This document shows, one piece after another, positions 25,869 to 44,600 of a stretch of DNA of 50,740 nt. Origin of the DNA: Chthoniobacterales bacterium (GTDB lineage: Bacteria > Verrucomicrobiota > Verrucomicrobiia > Chthoniobacterales > JACTMZ01). Position 1 is the stretch's first letter. Each line of letters begins with the position of its first letter. The notes below the pieces were generated by a model. The model had not been told where the DNA came from and searched no databases. It worked only from the letters and a program-made list of their open reading frames with translations. The DNA lies in NCBI GenBank assembly GCA_018883245.1, contig VEQL01000020.1, positions 1-50,740 on the forward strand. The letters run 5' to 3'. The translations under genes and the position numbers were made by a program.

Positions 25869-28094
25869 TCAGAGCACCGCCATGGGATCGACGTCCACCA
25901 CCACATGCGTGTCCTTGGGCAACTTTATCGCCTTCAATGAGTCTTTGATCGCTTGGGTGAGCGCGCGGATTTGCTTTCCGCGCGCCACGACTTGGTAGCG
26001 ATACATCCCCCGGACCCGCGCAAGCGGCGCAGGTGCAGCGGGACTCACCATGACGGATGGCGGCACGGCTGCGGACAGCTTTTGCGCGAGCGTCCGTGAG
26101 GCGAACTCTGCTTTCTGTTCCGTGTCGGCCCGCGCGGTGATCAGCACGAGATGCGAGAACGGCGGATGCCCGAAATTTTTGCGCATCTCGAGTTCGTGCA
26201 CGGCAAATCCATCGAAATCGTGCGACTTGGCGAATTGCAGCGAAGGGTGCGACGGCGTGAAAGTCTGCACGATCACCTCGCCCTCGGCATCACCGCGACC
26301 GGCGCGGCCGGCCACTTGGACGAGGAGCTGAAAGGTGCGTTCCCCGGCGCGGAAGTCGGGCAAATGCAGGGCGGAATCGGCGCTGATGATCCCGACCAAG
26401 GTGACCCCCGGAAAGTGCAGGCCCTTGGCGATCATTTGCGTGCCGACCAGAATGTCGATCTTGCGCGCACGGAAGGAACCGAGCGTCTCGTGATACGCGT
26501 TCTTCCGCGTCATGGTGTCGGAATCCATCCGTGCGACTCTCGCCTGCGGAAACATCTTGCGCACGGCGGCCTCGACTTTTTCCGTGCCCACACCGCTGAA
26601 AGCGATCTGCGGGTCATGGCACTGCGGACACCGCCGCGGCGGCTTCTCGGCGTAGCCGCAAATGTGGCAACGCGCGCGGTCCTCGGCACGGTGCAACGCC
26701 AATGACACACTGCAGTGCGGACACTCGATCTTTTTGCCGCAGGCCTTGCAGGCGAGGACAGTGAAGAATCCGCGGCGGTTGAGAAAAAGAATCGTCTGCT
26801 CGTTTTTTGCGAGGCGCGCCTCGACGGCGGACGCAAGCTTCGGCGAGATGAACTGGTCGCTGCGTTCGCCGTCCTTGCTGCGCAGACGCATATCGACGAC
26901 CCGGAACACAGGCAGGACGCATCCGTCGTGACGGTGCGTCAGTTCGAGCAGTTCGTATTTGCCCTTGCGGCAATTTTCGAAGCTTTCAAGGGACGGCGTG
27001 GCCGATCCGAGCAGCACAGCGCACGGCTCCATGTTCCCGCGGACGACAGCCAAGTCGCGAGCATGGTATCGGGGACCTTCGTCCTGCTTGTAGGACGTGT
27101 CGTGCTCCTCGTCGACAACGATGAGACCGAGGTTTTCCAACGGGGCGAAAACCGCGCCGCGCGCACCGATGACGATGCGCGCCTTCCCGTCCCGCACGCG
27201 GTGCCATTCGTCGTGGCGCTCGCCTTCGCTGAGGTGGCTGTGCAGCACGGCGACTTCGATACCCTCGGGCGCAAAACGTGAACTGAAGCGTTCCACCGTC
27301 TGCGGCGTGAGCGAGATTTCCGGCACGAGCACAAGCGCGGTCTTTCCTGCGTCGAGCACCTCGGCGATGGCCCGGAGGTAAACCTCGGTCTTGCCGCTGC
27401 CCGTGATGCCTTTGAGGACGACCGGCTTGTGTTTTGCGGGATCGCAGAGGGCCGGACGCAGTCTTTCAAGTGCCTGCTCCTGCTCGGCGCTCAACTTCGG
27501 CGGTTTCGACGCGACGAAGTCGTGCGATGCGAGCGGAGCACGCCGCACTTCCTCGGACGTGATTGAGACCATGCCACGCCGCGCCAAGGCCCTTAGCGCG
27601 GCGTCGGAAGAACCTGTCTCGGCGGTCAGCTTCGCGACGGGCAAGGGTCCGGATGTTTGGAGATGATCGACGATTGCCGCCTGCCGCGGCGCCTTCACAC
27701 GAAGCGCGGCTATTTCCTCGGCACTCACCTTCCGCGCGAGTGCGGCGAAGTTGCGTTTGAGCGGCGCATGACCCGTCTTGCGGACGGCGCGGGGCAAAAT
27801 GCAACGCAAAGCGTCCTGCTCGTCACACGCGTAATAATCGGCCATCCACTTCGCCAGGCGCATCAGCACAGGCGTCATCTGCGGGCGCTCGTCCATCACC
27901 GAGGCGATGGGACGCACACCCTTGGCCGCAGTCGTGTCGGACACGGACATGACCGTTCCGATGACTTGGCGGTTGCGCAGCGGAACGCGCACCCTCGAAC
28001 CCGGCGCGATGCGCGCCTCCCAACCCGCCGGAATTTCATAATCCAGCTCCTTGCCCGTCGAGCGGTCGAGGATCACTTGGGCGAATCGGGGCAT
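25869..28094 (-). CDS. priA: Primosomal protein N', replication-restart helicase
   Basis: A 741-residue PriA, the helicase that reloads the replisome at collapsed forks. The N-terminal DNA-binding domain starts MPRFAQVILDRSTGKELDYEIP. Helicase motifs are GITGSGKTEVYL (Walker A), VDEEHDTSYKQ (DEEH) and GSATPSLES. The zinc-binding cysteines are in CKACGKKIECPHC and CHICGYAEKPPRRCPQC. The later motifs GTQMIAKGLHFPGVTLVG and QVAGRAGRGDAEGEVIVQT and the C-terminal domain are complete. It is the last gene of a minus-strand run that starts with uvrC, 46 bases after yjbQ. Confidence 0.97.
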   Translation of the reverse strand: MPRFAQVILDRSTGKELDYEIPAGWEARIAPGSRVRVPLRNRQVIGTVMSVSDTTAAKGVRPIASVMDERPQMTPVLMRLAKWMADYYACDEQDALRCILPRAVRKTGHAPLKRNFAALARKVSAEEIAALRVKAPRQAAIVDHLQTSGPLPVAKLTAETGSSDAALRALARRGMVSITSEEVRRAPLASHDFVASKPPKLSAEQEQALERLRPALCDPAKHKPVVLKGITGSGKTEVYLRAIAEVLDAGKTALVLVPEISLTPQTVERFSSRFAPEGIEVAVLHSHLSEGERHDEWHRVRDGKARIVIGARGAVFAPLENLGLIVVDEEHDTSYKQDEGPRYHARDLAVVRGNMEPCAVLLGSATPSLESFENCRKGKYELLELTHRHDGCVLPVFRVVDMRLRSKDGERSDQFISPKLASAVEARLAKNEQTILFLNRRGFFTVLACKACGKKIECPHCSVSLALHRAEDRARCHICGYAEKPPRRCPQCHDPQIAFSGVGTEKVEAAVRKMFPQARVARMDSDTMTRKNAYHETLGSFRARKIDILVGTQMIAKGLHFPGVTLVGIISADSALHLPDFRAGERTFQLLVQVAGRAGRGDAEGEVIVQTFTPSHPSLQFAKSHDFDGFAVHELEMRKNFGHPPFSHLVLITARADTEQKAEFASRTLAQKLSAAVPPSVMVSPAAPAPLARVRGMYRYQVVARGKQIRALTQAIKDSLKAIKLPKDTHVVVDVDPMAVL

Positions 28095-30220: not shown

Positions 30221-31806
30221 ACACGGCGCGTGTGCAAATGTTTCGCCCGGTCGCGCCCCAAAGCCCCCTTGATTTCCCCGGCCAGCCTCGGCCCCATGCC
30301 GGGCACCGCCGCGATCTCTTCCAGAGGGGCGCGGCGCAGACGCTCCACCGATCCGAACGCGCGGAGCAATGCCTTCTTGCGCGATGCATTGATTCCCTCG
30401 ATATCGTCGAGCCGGCTCTCCGAAATCCGCCGCTTCATAAGCAGCCGGTGATAGGAATTGGCCACGCGGTGCGCCTCGTCGCGGATGCGTTGCAACATTT
30501 GCAGGGCACCATTGTCGTGGGGCAGGCGCAACGGCTGCGGATCGTGCGGGAAATAAATTTCCTCGCGCTCCTTGGCCAGGCCGATCACGGGTTGTCCGCG
30601 AAGGCCTAGGCGCGCAAGTTCGGCGCAGGCGCTGGAGAGTTGGCCCCGGCCGCCATCGACAATGATCAGGTCGGGCAAACGCATGGAATCGGGAAGGCGA
30701 AGACGCGCCACCGCCTCGCCCGGTTCCTCCTGCGAAAACTCGGCCTCATCGGACCCGACTTCGCGCGCCTGCGCCAGCAACCACGAATACCTCCGCCGGA
30801 CAACCTCCGCCATGCTGGCGAAGTCGTCCTGACCTTTGACCGTCCTGATCCGGTAGCGGCGGTAATTCGTGCGGTCCGGCACGCCGTCTTTGAAACGCAC
30901 CATCGAGGCCACGATGTGGGTCGCCGTGATGTTCGAAATGTCGAAGCATTCCATGACGGCGGGCGGGCGCCCCAGGCCGAGCGCCTCTCCGAGCGCCGCC
31001 AAATCCCCCTTTGGATCCTGGGTCGAAGGGAGGGAGTCTCCCCGCAGAAAACGACGGGAACGGGCCGCGGTGCGACGCAACGCGGTGATGAGATCGCGCA
31101 GCGCGGCGGCTTTTTCGAAATCATGTTTGGCCGCGGCGGCCCGCATTTCCTCCTCAAGCTCACCGGGGATTTCCTTGCTTCGCCCCTCGAGAAACGCGCA
31201 GGCCTCCAGCACGCGCGCGCGGTAGTCCGCCTCGCTGATTTTGCCGATACATGGCGCCGAGCAGTTTTTGATGATGTCGTCGTGGCAATGCCGGTAATCC
31301 TTTTCGCCGGGCACGCGCGGACGGCAGGAGCGCAGTCCGAATTTGCGCTGCAATATGGCCAGGGTCGCGCGCAGCGCACCGGAGTGCGCGTAGGGTCCGT
31401 AGTAGCGGGCACCGTCGTTTTTTTTGAGCCGCACAAGCGTGAAACGCGGAAACGGGTCGTCGAGATTGACTTTGAGCTGGAGGAAATTTTTGTCGTCGCG
31501 GAACGACACGTTGTATTTCGGGCGGTATTCTTTGATCAGCCTTCCTTCGAGCAAAACGGCTTCCGCGTCCGAACGAACGACATGCAGGCTGAAGTCCCAG
31601 ACTGAATCCAACAGGGCGCGCGTTTTCAGGTCGGCCAGGCGCGAACGCGCCGGAGTGAAATATTGGGCCAGGCGCTTGCGCAGGTCGCGGGCCTTGCCCA
31701 CGTAGATAACGCGGCCAAGCCTGTCCCGCATGAGGTAAACACCAGGTTTGTGCGGCACCTCGTGCAGGCGTGCGCGCAAATCGGGTCTCTCCTTGGCAGG
31801 CGGCAT
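30217..31806 (-). CDS. uvrC: Excinuclease ABC subunit C
   Basis: Makes the two incisions in nucleotide excision repair after UvrA/UvrB damage recognition. From ATG 31806 it has 529 residues, somewhat shorter than the usual 600. Domains in order are GIY-YIG nuclease (KPGVYLMRDRLGRVIYVGKARDLRKRL), a cysteine group (CRPRVPGEKDYRHCHDDIIKNCSAPC), a UVR motif (EMRAAAAKHDFEKAAALRDLI) and the RNase H-like 5' nuclease (MECFDISNITATH, LIIVDGGRGQLSSA). A helix-hairpin-helix pair (ISESRLDDIEGINASRKKALLRAFG and EEIAAVPGMGPRLAGEIKGAL) ends the protein. Two earlier in-frame ATGs (31830, 31845) are possible. It heads a five-gene run ending in priA. Confidence 0.95.
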   Translation of the reverse strand: MPPAKERPDLRARLHEVPHKPGVYLMRDRLGRVIYVGKARDLRKRLAQYFTPARSRLADLKTRALLDSVWDFSLHVVRSDAEAVLLEGRLIKEYRPKYNVSFRDDKNFLQLKVNLDDPFPRFTLVRLKKNDGARYYGPYAHSGALRATLAILQRKFGLRSCRPRVPGEKDYRHCHDDIIKNCSAPCIGKISEADYRARVLEACAFLEGRSKEIPGELEEEMRAAAAKHDFEKAAALRDLITALRRTAARSRRFLRGDSLPSTQDPKGDLAALGEALGLGRPPAVMECFDISNITATHIVASMVRFKDGVPDRTNYRRYRIRTVKGQDDFASMAEVVRRRYSWLLAQAREVGSDEAEFSQEEPGEAVARLRLPDSMRLPDLIIVDGGRGQLSSACAELARLGLRGQPVIGLAKEREEIYFPHDPQPLRLPHDNGALQMLQRIRDEAHRVANSYHRLLMKRRISESRLDDIEGINASRKKALLRAFGSVERLRRAPLEEIAAVPGMGPRLAGEIKGALGRDRAKHLHTRRV

Positions 31807-31867
31807 GGTGAATCCGAATATAGCCTTCATCGGGGGCTCCGCCATCCTTGCATCGCGGGCGACATCC

Positions 31868-31873
31868 TATAAT
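31868..31873 (+). promoter_or_regulatory. Consensus -10 box before the exbB-like gene
   Basis: An exact TATAAT lies 12 bases before the ATG at 31886. The best -35 candidate (TTGCAT, 31848-31853) is only 14 bases upstream and is poor. If used, the transcript would be nearly leaderless. Confidence 0.45.
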
Positions 31874-31885
31874 TTGGACGGTCAG

Positions 31886-32605
31886 ATGAGACCCTTCGTC
31901 CTGCTGGCCGCCGCGCCCTCCGTCGCATTTGCCCAAGCCGCGCCGTCTCCGGTGCCGCAGCCCGAGTCGAGCCTGTGGCAGGTGATCGTGTCGGGCGGTC
32001 CGGTCATGATCCCGCTCGGAATCCTGTCCGTCATCGGCGTAACGCTTGTCATCGTTTATCTATTCACGCTGCGGCGCGGTGCGATCGTGACCAAGCGCTA
32101 CATGACGACGGCCGATGCGCTCTTGCGCAAGCGTGACTACCTCGGGCTGCTGGCCATCTCCAACCGGCATCGTGAAGCCGTGGCGGGAGTGATGCAAAAA
32201 ACATTGGATTTCGTGACCCAGCACCCCGACGCGACATTCGCCGAAGCACGCGAAATCGCCGAGACCGAGGGCACCCGGCAGGCGGCCGCGCTCAACCAGC
32301 GCATCGCATACTTGGCCGACATCGGGACCATCGCGCCGATGCTCGGATTGTTCGGCACGGTGCTGGGCATGATCAAATCTTTCAGCGTGGTAGCCAGCGA
32401 CATCGTCGCCTCGCGTCCCATCATGCTGGCGGAAGGGGTTTCCGAGGCACTCGTCACCACGGCGGCCGGACTTCTCATCGGCATCCCCGCCATGGCGGCT
32501 TACGCCTTCTTCCGCGGACGCGTGCAGGCCCTCATTGCCGAGTTGGAGGCTGCATCGACGCGCCTTGTCGCCCTGCTTGCCGTGGCCTTCTCGCGGGGGC
32601 ACTAG
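31886..32605 (+). CDS. MotA/TolQ/ExbB-type proton channel protein
   Basis: A 239-residue membrane protein of the ExbB/TolQ family. A cleavable-looking N-terminus (VLLAAAPSVAFAQA) and a Pro-rich segment precede three membrane helices: about 37-58 (VMIPLGILSVIGVTLVIVYLF), the LADIGTIAPMLGLFGTVLGMIKSF signature near 145-170 and VTTAAGLLIGIPAMAAYAF near 190-208. The family uses the proton gradient with ExbD/TolR to energise outer-membrane transport or envelope constriction. No exbD/tolR-like gene follows; a foldback element begins exactly at the stop codon instead. The intended partner must be encoded elsewhere, or was separated. Confidence 0.92.
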   Translation: MRPFVLLAAAPSVAFAQAAPSPVPQPESSLWQVIVSGGPVMIPLGILSVIGVTLVIVYLFTLRRGAIVTKRYMTTADALLRKRDYLGLLAISNRHREAVAGVMQKTLDFVTQHPDATFAEAREIAETEGTRQAAALNQRIAYLADIGTIAPMLGLFGTVLGMIKSFSVVASDIVASRPIMLAEGVSEALVTTAAGLLIGIPAMAAYAFFRGRVQALIAELEAASTRLVALLAVAFSRGH

Positions 32606-32881
32606 AACCTATCCCAAAACCTCGCGGGGTGGCGCAGGGTCATAGCGGAGCGGATAGCAAGGCGCGAGCAAGGGAGCGATGCCTCTGCGCATCGTGACTG
32701 GCGAAGCAACGCCGCCAGACGCCCCGCCATGGCCCTGCCCGAGAGGGTTGCGGCGCTTTTCTTCCGTGGCTGCGTCGCGGCGCCCGGGACTGTATCGCAG
32801 AGGATACAGCCACATCGCTTGCTCCTTGCCACAAACGAAAATTATCCGCAACGCCACCGCGCCAGGTTTTAGGATAGGTTC
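32605..32881. mobile_element. MITE-like foldback element with inverted ends
   Basis: This fills most of the only gene-free gap over 300 bases. Its ends are 18-bp inverted repeats (32605-32622 and 32864-32881) differing at one position. Similarity between the two arms continues further inward in imperfect form (ggtggcg, gcaagg, gagcaa, gcgatg). Two local hairpins sit inside: stem 32677-32682/32689-32694 with loop CTCTGC, and stem 32790-32796/32803-32809 with loop GCAGAG. The loops are perfect reverse complements. Flanking CTAG and CTGG could be a degraded 4-bp target duplication. It has no credible coding frame. The left end includes the last base of the exbB stop codon. A transposase acting in trans is inferred. 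Confidence 0.72.
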
Positions 32882-32930
32882 TGGAACCGTTTTTGCTGGA
32901 TTCCGCGGCGGCACAGGATAAGAGAGATCC

Positions 32931-41690: not shown

Positions 41691-44600
41691 ATGTCCAAAC
41701 GCAACCGCCCAACGAAAGATCGTCAGGTTCTCCGCATCCGCGGGGCGCGCCAGAACAATCTTCGCGGCATTGACCTCGATCTTCCGCGGGGATTGTTGCA
41801 CGTCGTCACCGGTCCGAGCGGTTCGGGCAAATCCTCCCTCGCTTTCGATACAATTTACGCCGAGGGCCAGCGTCGCTATATCGAGACTTTCTCCCCCTAC
41901 ACAAGGCAGTTCTTCGATCGCATGGACAAACCGCGCGTGGACGCCATCGAAGGCATCCCGCCGGCCATCGCGATCGAGCAGTCGAACAACGTCAAAACCA
42001 CGCGCTCGACCGTCGGCACCATCACGGAGATCAATGACTATCTGAAATTGCTCTTCCCGCGCCTCGCTGAGGCCTCGTGTCCGAAGTGTCATAAACCAAT
42101 CCACCCCGAAACCGCCCGCTGCATCGTATGCGATGTCGCAAAGCGGTTCGCCGGGCGAACCCTGCTCGTGAGTTTTCCCGTGGGCACCGGGGACGTGGAA
42201 AAACGCGCGCCCGCGCAGTTCTTCGAGTTTCTCCGCCAGCAAGGCTACCTCCGAATCCTTGCCGGTAAAAAAATCCTGAGAGCCGACGAACCCCCGCCCG
42301 CCGCACTCCCGCCCGTCGTGCAAGTGATCCAAGACCGCGTCCCCGCATCGGACGAGCGCCGGCTCACCGAGGCTGTCGAAACCGCTTTGCGCCTCGGAAA
42401 AGGCCGGGTTCTCGTTGCCGATGCCGAAACCGGCGAAAGCGTCCCTTTTTCCTCGGGCTGGCATTGCGCATGGTGCGATCTCGACATACGCCCTCCGACA
42501 CCCGGGCTCTTCAGCTTCAACCATCCGCTCGGAGCCTGCCCCGAATGCCGCGGGTTCGGACGCATCATCGGTCTCGACTGGCAACGAATCATTCCCGACC
42601 GCTCGCGCACGCTTGCCGAGGGCGTTGTGCGTCCTTTCCAAAGCGGGATGTCGCAGGAGTGCCAGAGCGACCTCCTCCGGCATGCACGGCGCCGCGACAT
42701 CGATCTGCATTGTCCGTTCGAAGACCTCCCGCAGGCCGACCAAGACTGGGTCGTCAAAGGCGAGCGCCGCCCCGGGGAGGCGCTGCACGAAGCATGGGAC
42801 AGCGACCGCTGGTATGGCGTGCAGGGCTATTTCGATTGGCTCGAAACCAAGACTTACAAAATGCATGTCCGCGTGCTGCTCAGCCGCTACCGCAGCTACA
42901 ACGAATGCCCGAAATGCCGCGGCGGACGCTTCCAACCCGAAACGCTCAATTACCGCCTCGCCGGAGCCAACGGTGAAAAACTCGCCCTGCCGGAGATCGC
43001 CGGGCGCCCGATCCGCCGCCTGCGCGAATTTCTCGCCGGTATTGCGGTGCCCGACGCGGACCACACCACACAACTGCTTCTGGACCAAGTCACCTCGCGC
43101 CTGTCCTACCTCGAGGAAGTCGGACTGGGATATCTCACCCTCGACCGCCCGACTCGCACGCTCTCCGGCGGCGAAGTGCAGCGTGTCAACCTCACCACCT
43201 GCCTCGGCGCCTCGTTGGTCAACACCCTCTTTGTCATGGACGAACCCAGCGTCGGACTTCATCCGCGCGACCTCGGACAACTCCTCGGCATCATGCGCCG
43301 CTTGCGTGACAACGGGAACACACTCCTTGTCGTCGAGCATGAGGAAACGGTCATCCGCGCCGCCGATTGGCTCACCGACATCGGCCCCGGACGCGGCGAA
43401 ACCGGCGGACAACTCATGTTCTCGGGTCCGCCGTCGCAAATCGCGGACAAAGCCGGTTCCCTCACTGCCGATTATCTTGTCGGCCGCCGAACCATTCCCG
43501 TGCCGTCCAAACGCCGTGCCGCGAAAAAGTTCCTCAAACTCCGCGGCGCATCGCTCAACAACATCAAAAAACTCGACGCGGACTTCCCGCTCGGTGTGTT
43601 CACCTGCGTGACCGGCGTTTCCGGTTCGGGCAAGTCCACCCTGGTCCACGGCCTCCTTCACCGCAACCTGCTCCGCGAGCGCGGGGAACCCGTCGAGGAA
43701 GATGCAGGCACAATCAAAAAGCTCACCGGCATCGAACACGTCGGCAACGTCGTGATGGTCGACCAATCGCCACCCGGAAAATCCTCGCGCTCCACGCCGG
43801 TCGTTTACCTCGGCGCTTGGGACCACATCCGGGACCTCTTCGCGCAGACGCCCGCCGCCAAAGGCGCCGGACTCGGAGCATCCGCCTTCAGCTTCAACTC
43901 GAATGCCGGACGTTGCGAGCGCTGCGCCGGACTCGGCTACGAACGCATCGAAATGCAGTTCTTGAGCGATGTTTCCCTCGTCTGCACATCCTGTGGCGGC
44001 AAGCGCTTCCAGCCCCACGTTCTTCGCGTCCTGCTCGAAGGCAAGTCGGCACATGACGTCCTCGAAATGACCGTCACCCAGGCCCTCGCGTTTTTCAAAA
44101 AATTCCCCAGGCACCGGAAAATCACCGGACCTTTGCAGACGCTCGAAGATGTCGGCCTCGGATATCTCCGGCTCGGACAACCCACCAGCTTCCTCTCCGG
44201 CGGGGAATCGCAGCGTCTCAAGCTGGCGGCCCATCTCGCCGACACCGAGGCGGAGTCCTCTCTCCTGCTCTTCGACGAACCGACGACCGGCTTGCACTTC
44301 GACGACATCGCGCGTCTCCTGCGGGTCTTTGAACGCCTCGTCGAGGCCGGACACACACTCGTGGTCATCGAGCACAACGTGGAAGTCATCAAATCCGCAG
44401 ACCACGTCATAGACATCGGGCCCGAAGCCGGGGAAGAAGGCGGACAAATCGTCGTCGCCGGCACACCCGAAGAAGTCGCGCAGAACAAAGACTCTCGCAC
44501 CGCCCCGTTTCTGCGCGCGGCGCTCGAGGAGCAAAAACACGAAGCCACACTCCGCGCGGCCGAACCGGTCGCACCGCTCCTTGCCGCGGACAACCATCGC

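Follow-up and report, generated by a model that had tools for sequence, protein, structure and literature searches.

Bacterial MITEs are commonly regarded as deletion remnants of insertion sequences (ISs), without content of their own. The Correia/NEMIS, RUP, BOX and ERIC repeats are MITE-like, and their transcripts fold, some of them being processed by RNase III. These repeats belong to narrow taxa and have fixed ends (compare the review PMC10969869). The R0 and R2 repeats of P. fluorescens have inverted repeats identical to those of a resident IS (PMC2718517), and in the TIRYT/TIRtron systems Y1 transposases are tied to terminal inverted repeats (TIRs) that also occur as dispersed repeats (PMC3733652).

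Here, we describe an element found in a stretch of 50,740 nucleotides from a Chthoniobacterales bacterium (the window). Like the MITEs that are mobilised by ISs in other bacteria, it is short, non-coding and multicopy, has the ends of a resident IS over 18–19 bp, is associated with TA duplication and contains an internal hairpin. Unlike theirs, the sequence between its ends does not stem from the IS, and consists of two copies of a structured module that is common to differently ended MITEs across phyla. The module resembles REP/BIME/REPIN repeats with their RAYTs, and the TIRYT/TIRtron systems, in its strand-specific hairpin, inverted hairpin pairs, intergenic location and occurrence in many genomes, but it is much longer, has its own bulge motif, adjoins no Y1 gene and is carried between TA-flanked TIRs. 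In contrast to Correia/NEMIS, RUP, BOX and ERIC, it keeps one structural core in many phyla whilst the ends change. With Rfam RNA families it shares covarying secondary structure and conserved unpaired motifs; the covariance models of Rfam 15 matched nothing above chance in the element and 16 of its relatives. A literature search by sequence strings and by topic found no description of the module, which is weak evidence of novelty as subscription papers, ISfinder and unpublished catalogues lay outside its scope.

We propose, with a probability of roughly 0.6, that the element is a non-autonomous MITE served by an IS5-type transposase, and that it carries two convergent copies of a cross-phylum module that works as a polar, folded single strand.

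Anatomy of the element and its probable partner insertion sequence

The features of the locus are collected in Table 1. The inverted ends, the two hairpins and the complementary loops described in an earlier note on this DNA are all present in the sequence, the loops CTCTGC and GCAGAG being exact reverse complements. As that note had also stated, the arms stay alike further inward, with 90% identity over 31 bp by BLAST, and the TIRs are longer in other copies of the MITE. The right-flank TG of the window copy is a mutated TA. ORFs within the 277 bp are those expected by chance, with no transposase gene amongst them. The left TA and the first base of the element make up the TAG stop (32603–32605) of the upstream ORF, which places the insertion exactly at the end of a gene whose frame keeps its end; this gene is putatively ExbB/MotA-like, and the downstream ORF has a predicted lipoprotein-like start.

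Table 1. Features of the element and its surroundings (positions in the window)
Feature	Position	Strand	Remarks
MITE	32605–32881		277 bp; most copies 276 bp
Left TIR, 18 bp	32605–32622	+	GAACCTATCCCAAAACCT; resemblance runs to ~31 bp
Right TIR	32864–32881	-	Reverse complement of GAACCTATCCTAAAACCT; 1 mismatch vs left
Left target-site copy	32603–32604		TA; adjoins element start
Right target-site copy	32882–32883		TG (other copies: TA)
Module copy 1	32644–32729	+ (sense)	Covariance model R1: 43.2 bits, E 3.2e-10
Apical hairpin 1, module copy 1	32677–32694	+	Stem CGATGC 32677–32682, loop CTCTGC 32683–32688, stem GCATCG 32689–32694
Module copy 2, convergent with copy 1	32755–32842	- (sense)	R1: 26.9 bits, E 1.4e-5
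Apical hairpin 2, module copy 2	32790–32809	-	On + strand: stem CTGTATC 32790–32796, loop GCAGAG 32797–32802, stem GATACAG 32803–32809
Upstream ORF	31748–32605	+	Stop codon made at element junction
Downstream ORF, 113 aa	32931–33272	+	Starts 49 bp past element

The description of the element as a MITE-like foldback held when its own genome and those of its relatives were searched. BLAST gave 64 matches in the 2.9-Mb genome, with at least seven near-complete copies (91–98% identity) and about 15 fragments, and five copies other than that in the window lie between TA dinucleotides, a contig end truncating one of the five. Relatives of the MITE are present in three species of the genus, as full copies in two (85–86% identical) and as a partial copy in the third (87% identical). 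Approximately ten contigs of the genome start or end within the MITE or at its border (C24, C26, C38, C39, C42, C43, C47, C57, C61 and C73 of assembly G000); the MITE thus breaks the assembly, and its true copy number lies above our count. Two internal deletion derivatives on contig C6 (37315–37384, 70 bp; 42103–42206, 104 bp) keep both ends, and the longer of them has TA at either side.

A search of the genome with the 17-bp end identified two pairs of ends 827 bp apart. Both are intact ISs with the ends of the MITE and TA flanks, as the earlier note had suggested should be sought, and in one of them (C6, 1331–2157) the ends are identical to the left end of the MITE over at least 17 bp. The 258 aa product matches NF033580 (transpos_IS5_3) at 210.7 bits, against a cut-off of 110, and has the Pfam domains DUF4096 and DDE_Tnp_1, which identify it by sequence as an IS5-family DDE transposase. 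No similarity between IS and MITE was seen outside the ends, which they share over 18–19 bp.

By its TIRs, its target-site duplication, its dispersed copies without a transposase gene and the IS with the same ends, the element is a MITE. Judging from this anatomy, it is most likely moved in trans at TA sites by the transposase of the resident IS5-family IS. The earlier note had set a structured RNA or single-stranded DNA against a plain short transposon. This was a false contrast, because the ends, TA flanks and copy number are those of an ordinary IS5-type MITE, one that also carries a structured module.

Distribution of the hairpin module across bacteria

To follow one arm beyond the genus, the pattern GGCAAGGCGC-N(27–52)-GCAACGCMGCCA was scanned over named genomes. 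At least 120 stretches were found, and the matches listed came from Pseudomonadota, Acidobacteriota, Planctomycetota, Actinomycetota, Verrucomicrobiota, Nitrospinota, Gemmatimonadota and others; since an exact pattern served to pick them, invariance at GGCAAGGCGC and GCAACGCMGCCA is built in. In most of the matches listed, the arm forms the apical tip of a palindromic element of approximately 100–270 bp, and the terminal repeats around the module vary between families. BLAST against the order likewise found that other families contain diverged relatives of the MITE interior, set between terminal repeats that differ from those of the MITE. Some elements have one module and others two convergent modules, the 18 two-module elements all having the convergent arrangement (-> <-).

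A covariance model (R1) was built from 70 diverse modules, none of them from the window. It detects 16 sites in the element's own genome, namely both arms and all further module matches there, and has matches in 34 of 388 genomes of the phylum, often in multiple copies. Both arms match this one model, which makes them two copies of one hairpin module, and bears out the idea that they descend from one ancestor, with stems that diverged yet stayed paired. A faint additional match in the window (27628–27694; 13.2 bits, E 0.11) is probably due to chance.

A viral and a plasmid home for the module are rejected: the viral collection held only five stretches with the pattern, compared with at least 120 in genomes, and plasmids yielded one relative class with two weak matches.

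Several families merit separate description. In Silvimonas terrae (L133, 1821–2093), the module forms a tandem array, head to tail, that repeats every ~107 bp and lacks terminal repeats. Another family has the ends CCTAGAAACNGCAGTTG, comes mostly from Betaproteobacteria and has ~130 end sites in one genome (G213, G217 and G215; L238–L252). It exists as a 234-bp form with the module and a 117-bp form without it; the shorter form apparently arose by deletion between short direct repeats (GCGC) that border the hairpin. Genome G432 (L277–L279, L360–L378) contains ~40 near-identical 221-bp MITEs with one module and TNA target duplications, a family that has apparently been active recently.

The genome of the window is the only one that yielded a transposase partner sharing the ends of its element. 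None was found in a complete genome that contains the element three times, none in G432 despite its ~40 MITEs, and no partner IS with matching ends was found for the other tip classes in G531, G432 and G597. Matching ends were also not found at the PF13340 (IS5-type) genes of 24 genomes that bear the module. That several transposases carry one module is therefore a statement made from anatomy.

Folding and strand polarity of the module

The structure common to the 70 modules, ~80 nt in length, begins with an outer stem, followed by C, an AA bulge, and GGCG paired with CGCM, with a CAA bulge on the opposite strand. Above the bulges lies a helix of tandem G.A pairs in alternation with Watson–Crick pairs, and then the apical hairpin. 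The resulting motif, C-AA-GGCG ... CAA-CGCM-G, thus has two A-bulges on opposite strands between stems that are variable. Within the phylum of the window, even GGC/GCC beside the bulge is swapped pairwise (GGAC/GTCC, TGC/GCA, GAC/GTC, CGC/GCG), and across phyla the positions of the bulges stay constant whilst the surrounding stems are rewritten.

Compared with dinucleotide shuffles, the element folds far more stably, with z-scores of -7.1 and -8.3 for the two strands (0/200 shuffles), and either strand is predicted to form two long side arms on a terminal stem. When 55 module copies that had no part in model building were aligned to R1, 86.0% of cells paired, against 59.1 ± 0.8 in shuffled alignments, although alignment to the model leans such pair counts toward it. 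The covariation score was 0.618, compared with 0.161 ± 0.010 after shuffling (0/500 shuffles) and with 0.17 at most for slid structures. Covariation is seen between the two arms and over the wider superfamily. The earlier note had proposed to test copies of the element for it, and within the window's own MITE family it is absent: the stems of the apical hairpins either stay unchanged or have slight breaks in pairing.

The mismatches of the outer stem distinguish the strands. The two strands of a duplex inverted repeat are equivalent, and G.T and A.C would be expected equally often on the top strand. The 70 model-building sequences have 77 G.T and 8 A.C, and reduction to 28 clusters leaves 48 against 8 (p 5e-8). 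The tandem G.A pairs appear and vanish as units (co-occurrence p 1.7e-14 and 5e-11). The excess of G.T over A.C and the behaviour of the G.A units argue that the GGCAAGG...GCAACGC strand came under selection in a self-folded state, as RNA or single-stranded DNA. We regard this as strong evidence, drawn from sequence comparison, that one strand of the module folds alone. The earlier proposal of a structured RNA or single-stranded DNA agrees with the strand-specific mismatches, the G.A units and the covariation. Between these two forms, RNA is slightly favoured by the many G.U pairs, the tandem G.A pairs and the A-bulges.

A second recurrent internal loop was observed in many families (L114–L233), ~10 bp outside the module and under the outer stem, as GATGGA ... 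GACGC or in the flipped form GAGGCG ... GATGNATC. The conserved fold probably exceeds the extent that was modelled.

Alternative explanations and a possible role for the module

The element could instead be a plain IS5-type MITE, in which palindrome birth and repair left the hairpins as a by-product and the shared interior reflects only descent from one very old MITE, with a fold that has no function. The ends, TA flanks, copy number and matching IS account for mobility on this explanation, inverted repeats pair in any case, and template switching can preserve pairing. The deletion derivatives also fit, as module-free forms with intact ends exist at 70 and 104 bp in the element's own genome and at 117 bp in G213/G217. 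However, palindrome repair is strand-neutral, and the ratio of G.T to A.C is approximately 6–10 to 1; tandem G.A pairs substitute Watson–Crick pairs as units, on one strand; and the bulges keep their positions across phyla amid rewritten stems. Furthermore, variation within one family is lower in the module than around it: in 24 aligned copies of the ~40 in G432, 3/59 columns were variable in the module, compared with 35/126 in the rest of the interior (p 0.0002). We consider a plain MITE unlikely.

A cis-acting RNA of the host, such as a terminator, insulator or mRNA processing site kept for its benefit to adjacent genes, would be consistent with the stability of the single-strand folds and with sites that are mostly intergenic, at distances of some tens of bases from the nearby genes. 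The orientation of the module relative to genes gives this explanation little room: at 65 usable sites, with crude ORF calling, the sense module ran with its genes, ran against them, lay between convergent genes or lay between divergent genes in 15, 18, 14 and 18 cases, so that a cis role for neighbours is unlikely on present counts. The two-module elements point both ways, and the Rfam search described above is a further argument against a role of this kind, which we judge improbable.

The bulged, strand-specific hairpin recalls the substrates of REP and IS200-type systems, and an HUH/Y1 transposase (RAYT or TIRYT) might accordingly use the module as its single-strand substrate, as with REP hairpins but inside IS5-type ends. 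Y1 transposases associated with TIRs and dispersed TIR repeats are on record (PMC3733652), and Y1 genes occur in 22 of 29 module-bearing genomes. However, not one module lies within 1.5 kb of the 30 Y1 genes in these genomes, and the other seven of the 29 genomes lack Y1 genes altogether. In the module alignments, no GTAG of the kind that tags the foot of REP hairpins was noticed. The absence of modules near the Y1 genes led us to reject the link, to which we would assign very little probability.

Finally, the earlier note's suggestion of a kissing-loop device, in which an element's two loops would pair with one another, is scarcely credible and was rejected: the complementarity of CTCTGC and GCAGAG was conserved in nearly all family copies and in two related species, but it was lost in own-genome copy L007, any hairpin that is present twice in inverted orientation has complementary loops as a matter of course, and amongst the 18 two-module elements identical loops occur only in the window's family and differ in all the unrelated ones, so that the match is confined to that family by descent.

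Under the reading that we favour, that of an IS5-served MITE with two polar modules, the fold would benefit the transposon itself and not the neighbouring genes. A widely conserved host protein would, most likely, bind the module, and the presence of two convergent copies would give either strand one functional fold. The module can be deleted with the ends intact, and so is not strictly required for the element's existence, yet it has been retained for a very long time. We tentatively entertain a further possibility, less probable than not in our estimation, that the true selfish unit is a single ancient RNA or single-stranded DNA module, present in many phyla and passed through successive unrelated IS5-like ends, of which a conserved host factor recognizes the double A-bulge and the tandem G.A helix. 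If true, this would define a new class amongst conserved structured elements, unlike REPs, attC sites or the ends of IS200/IS605.

As a carrier, the element is unremarkable amongst IS5-type MITEs; the module, our analysis suggests, is an unrecognized structured part, RNA or single-stranded DNA, of very wide occurrence. The sequence tag CAAGGCG...CAACGCMG and the covariance model make its binding partner, its RNA or DNA form and its effect on mobility testable, and provide a widespread motif to add to RNA and repeat annotation. The occurrence of the module from Verrucomicrobiota to Actinomycetota and Betaproteobacteria, with changing ends, would mean that some MITEs hold a functional part that outlasts their transposase partners.
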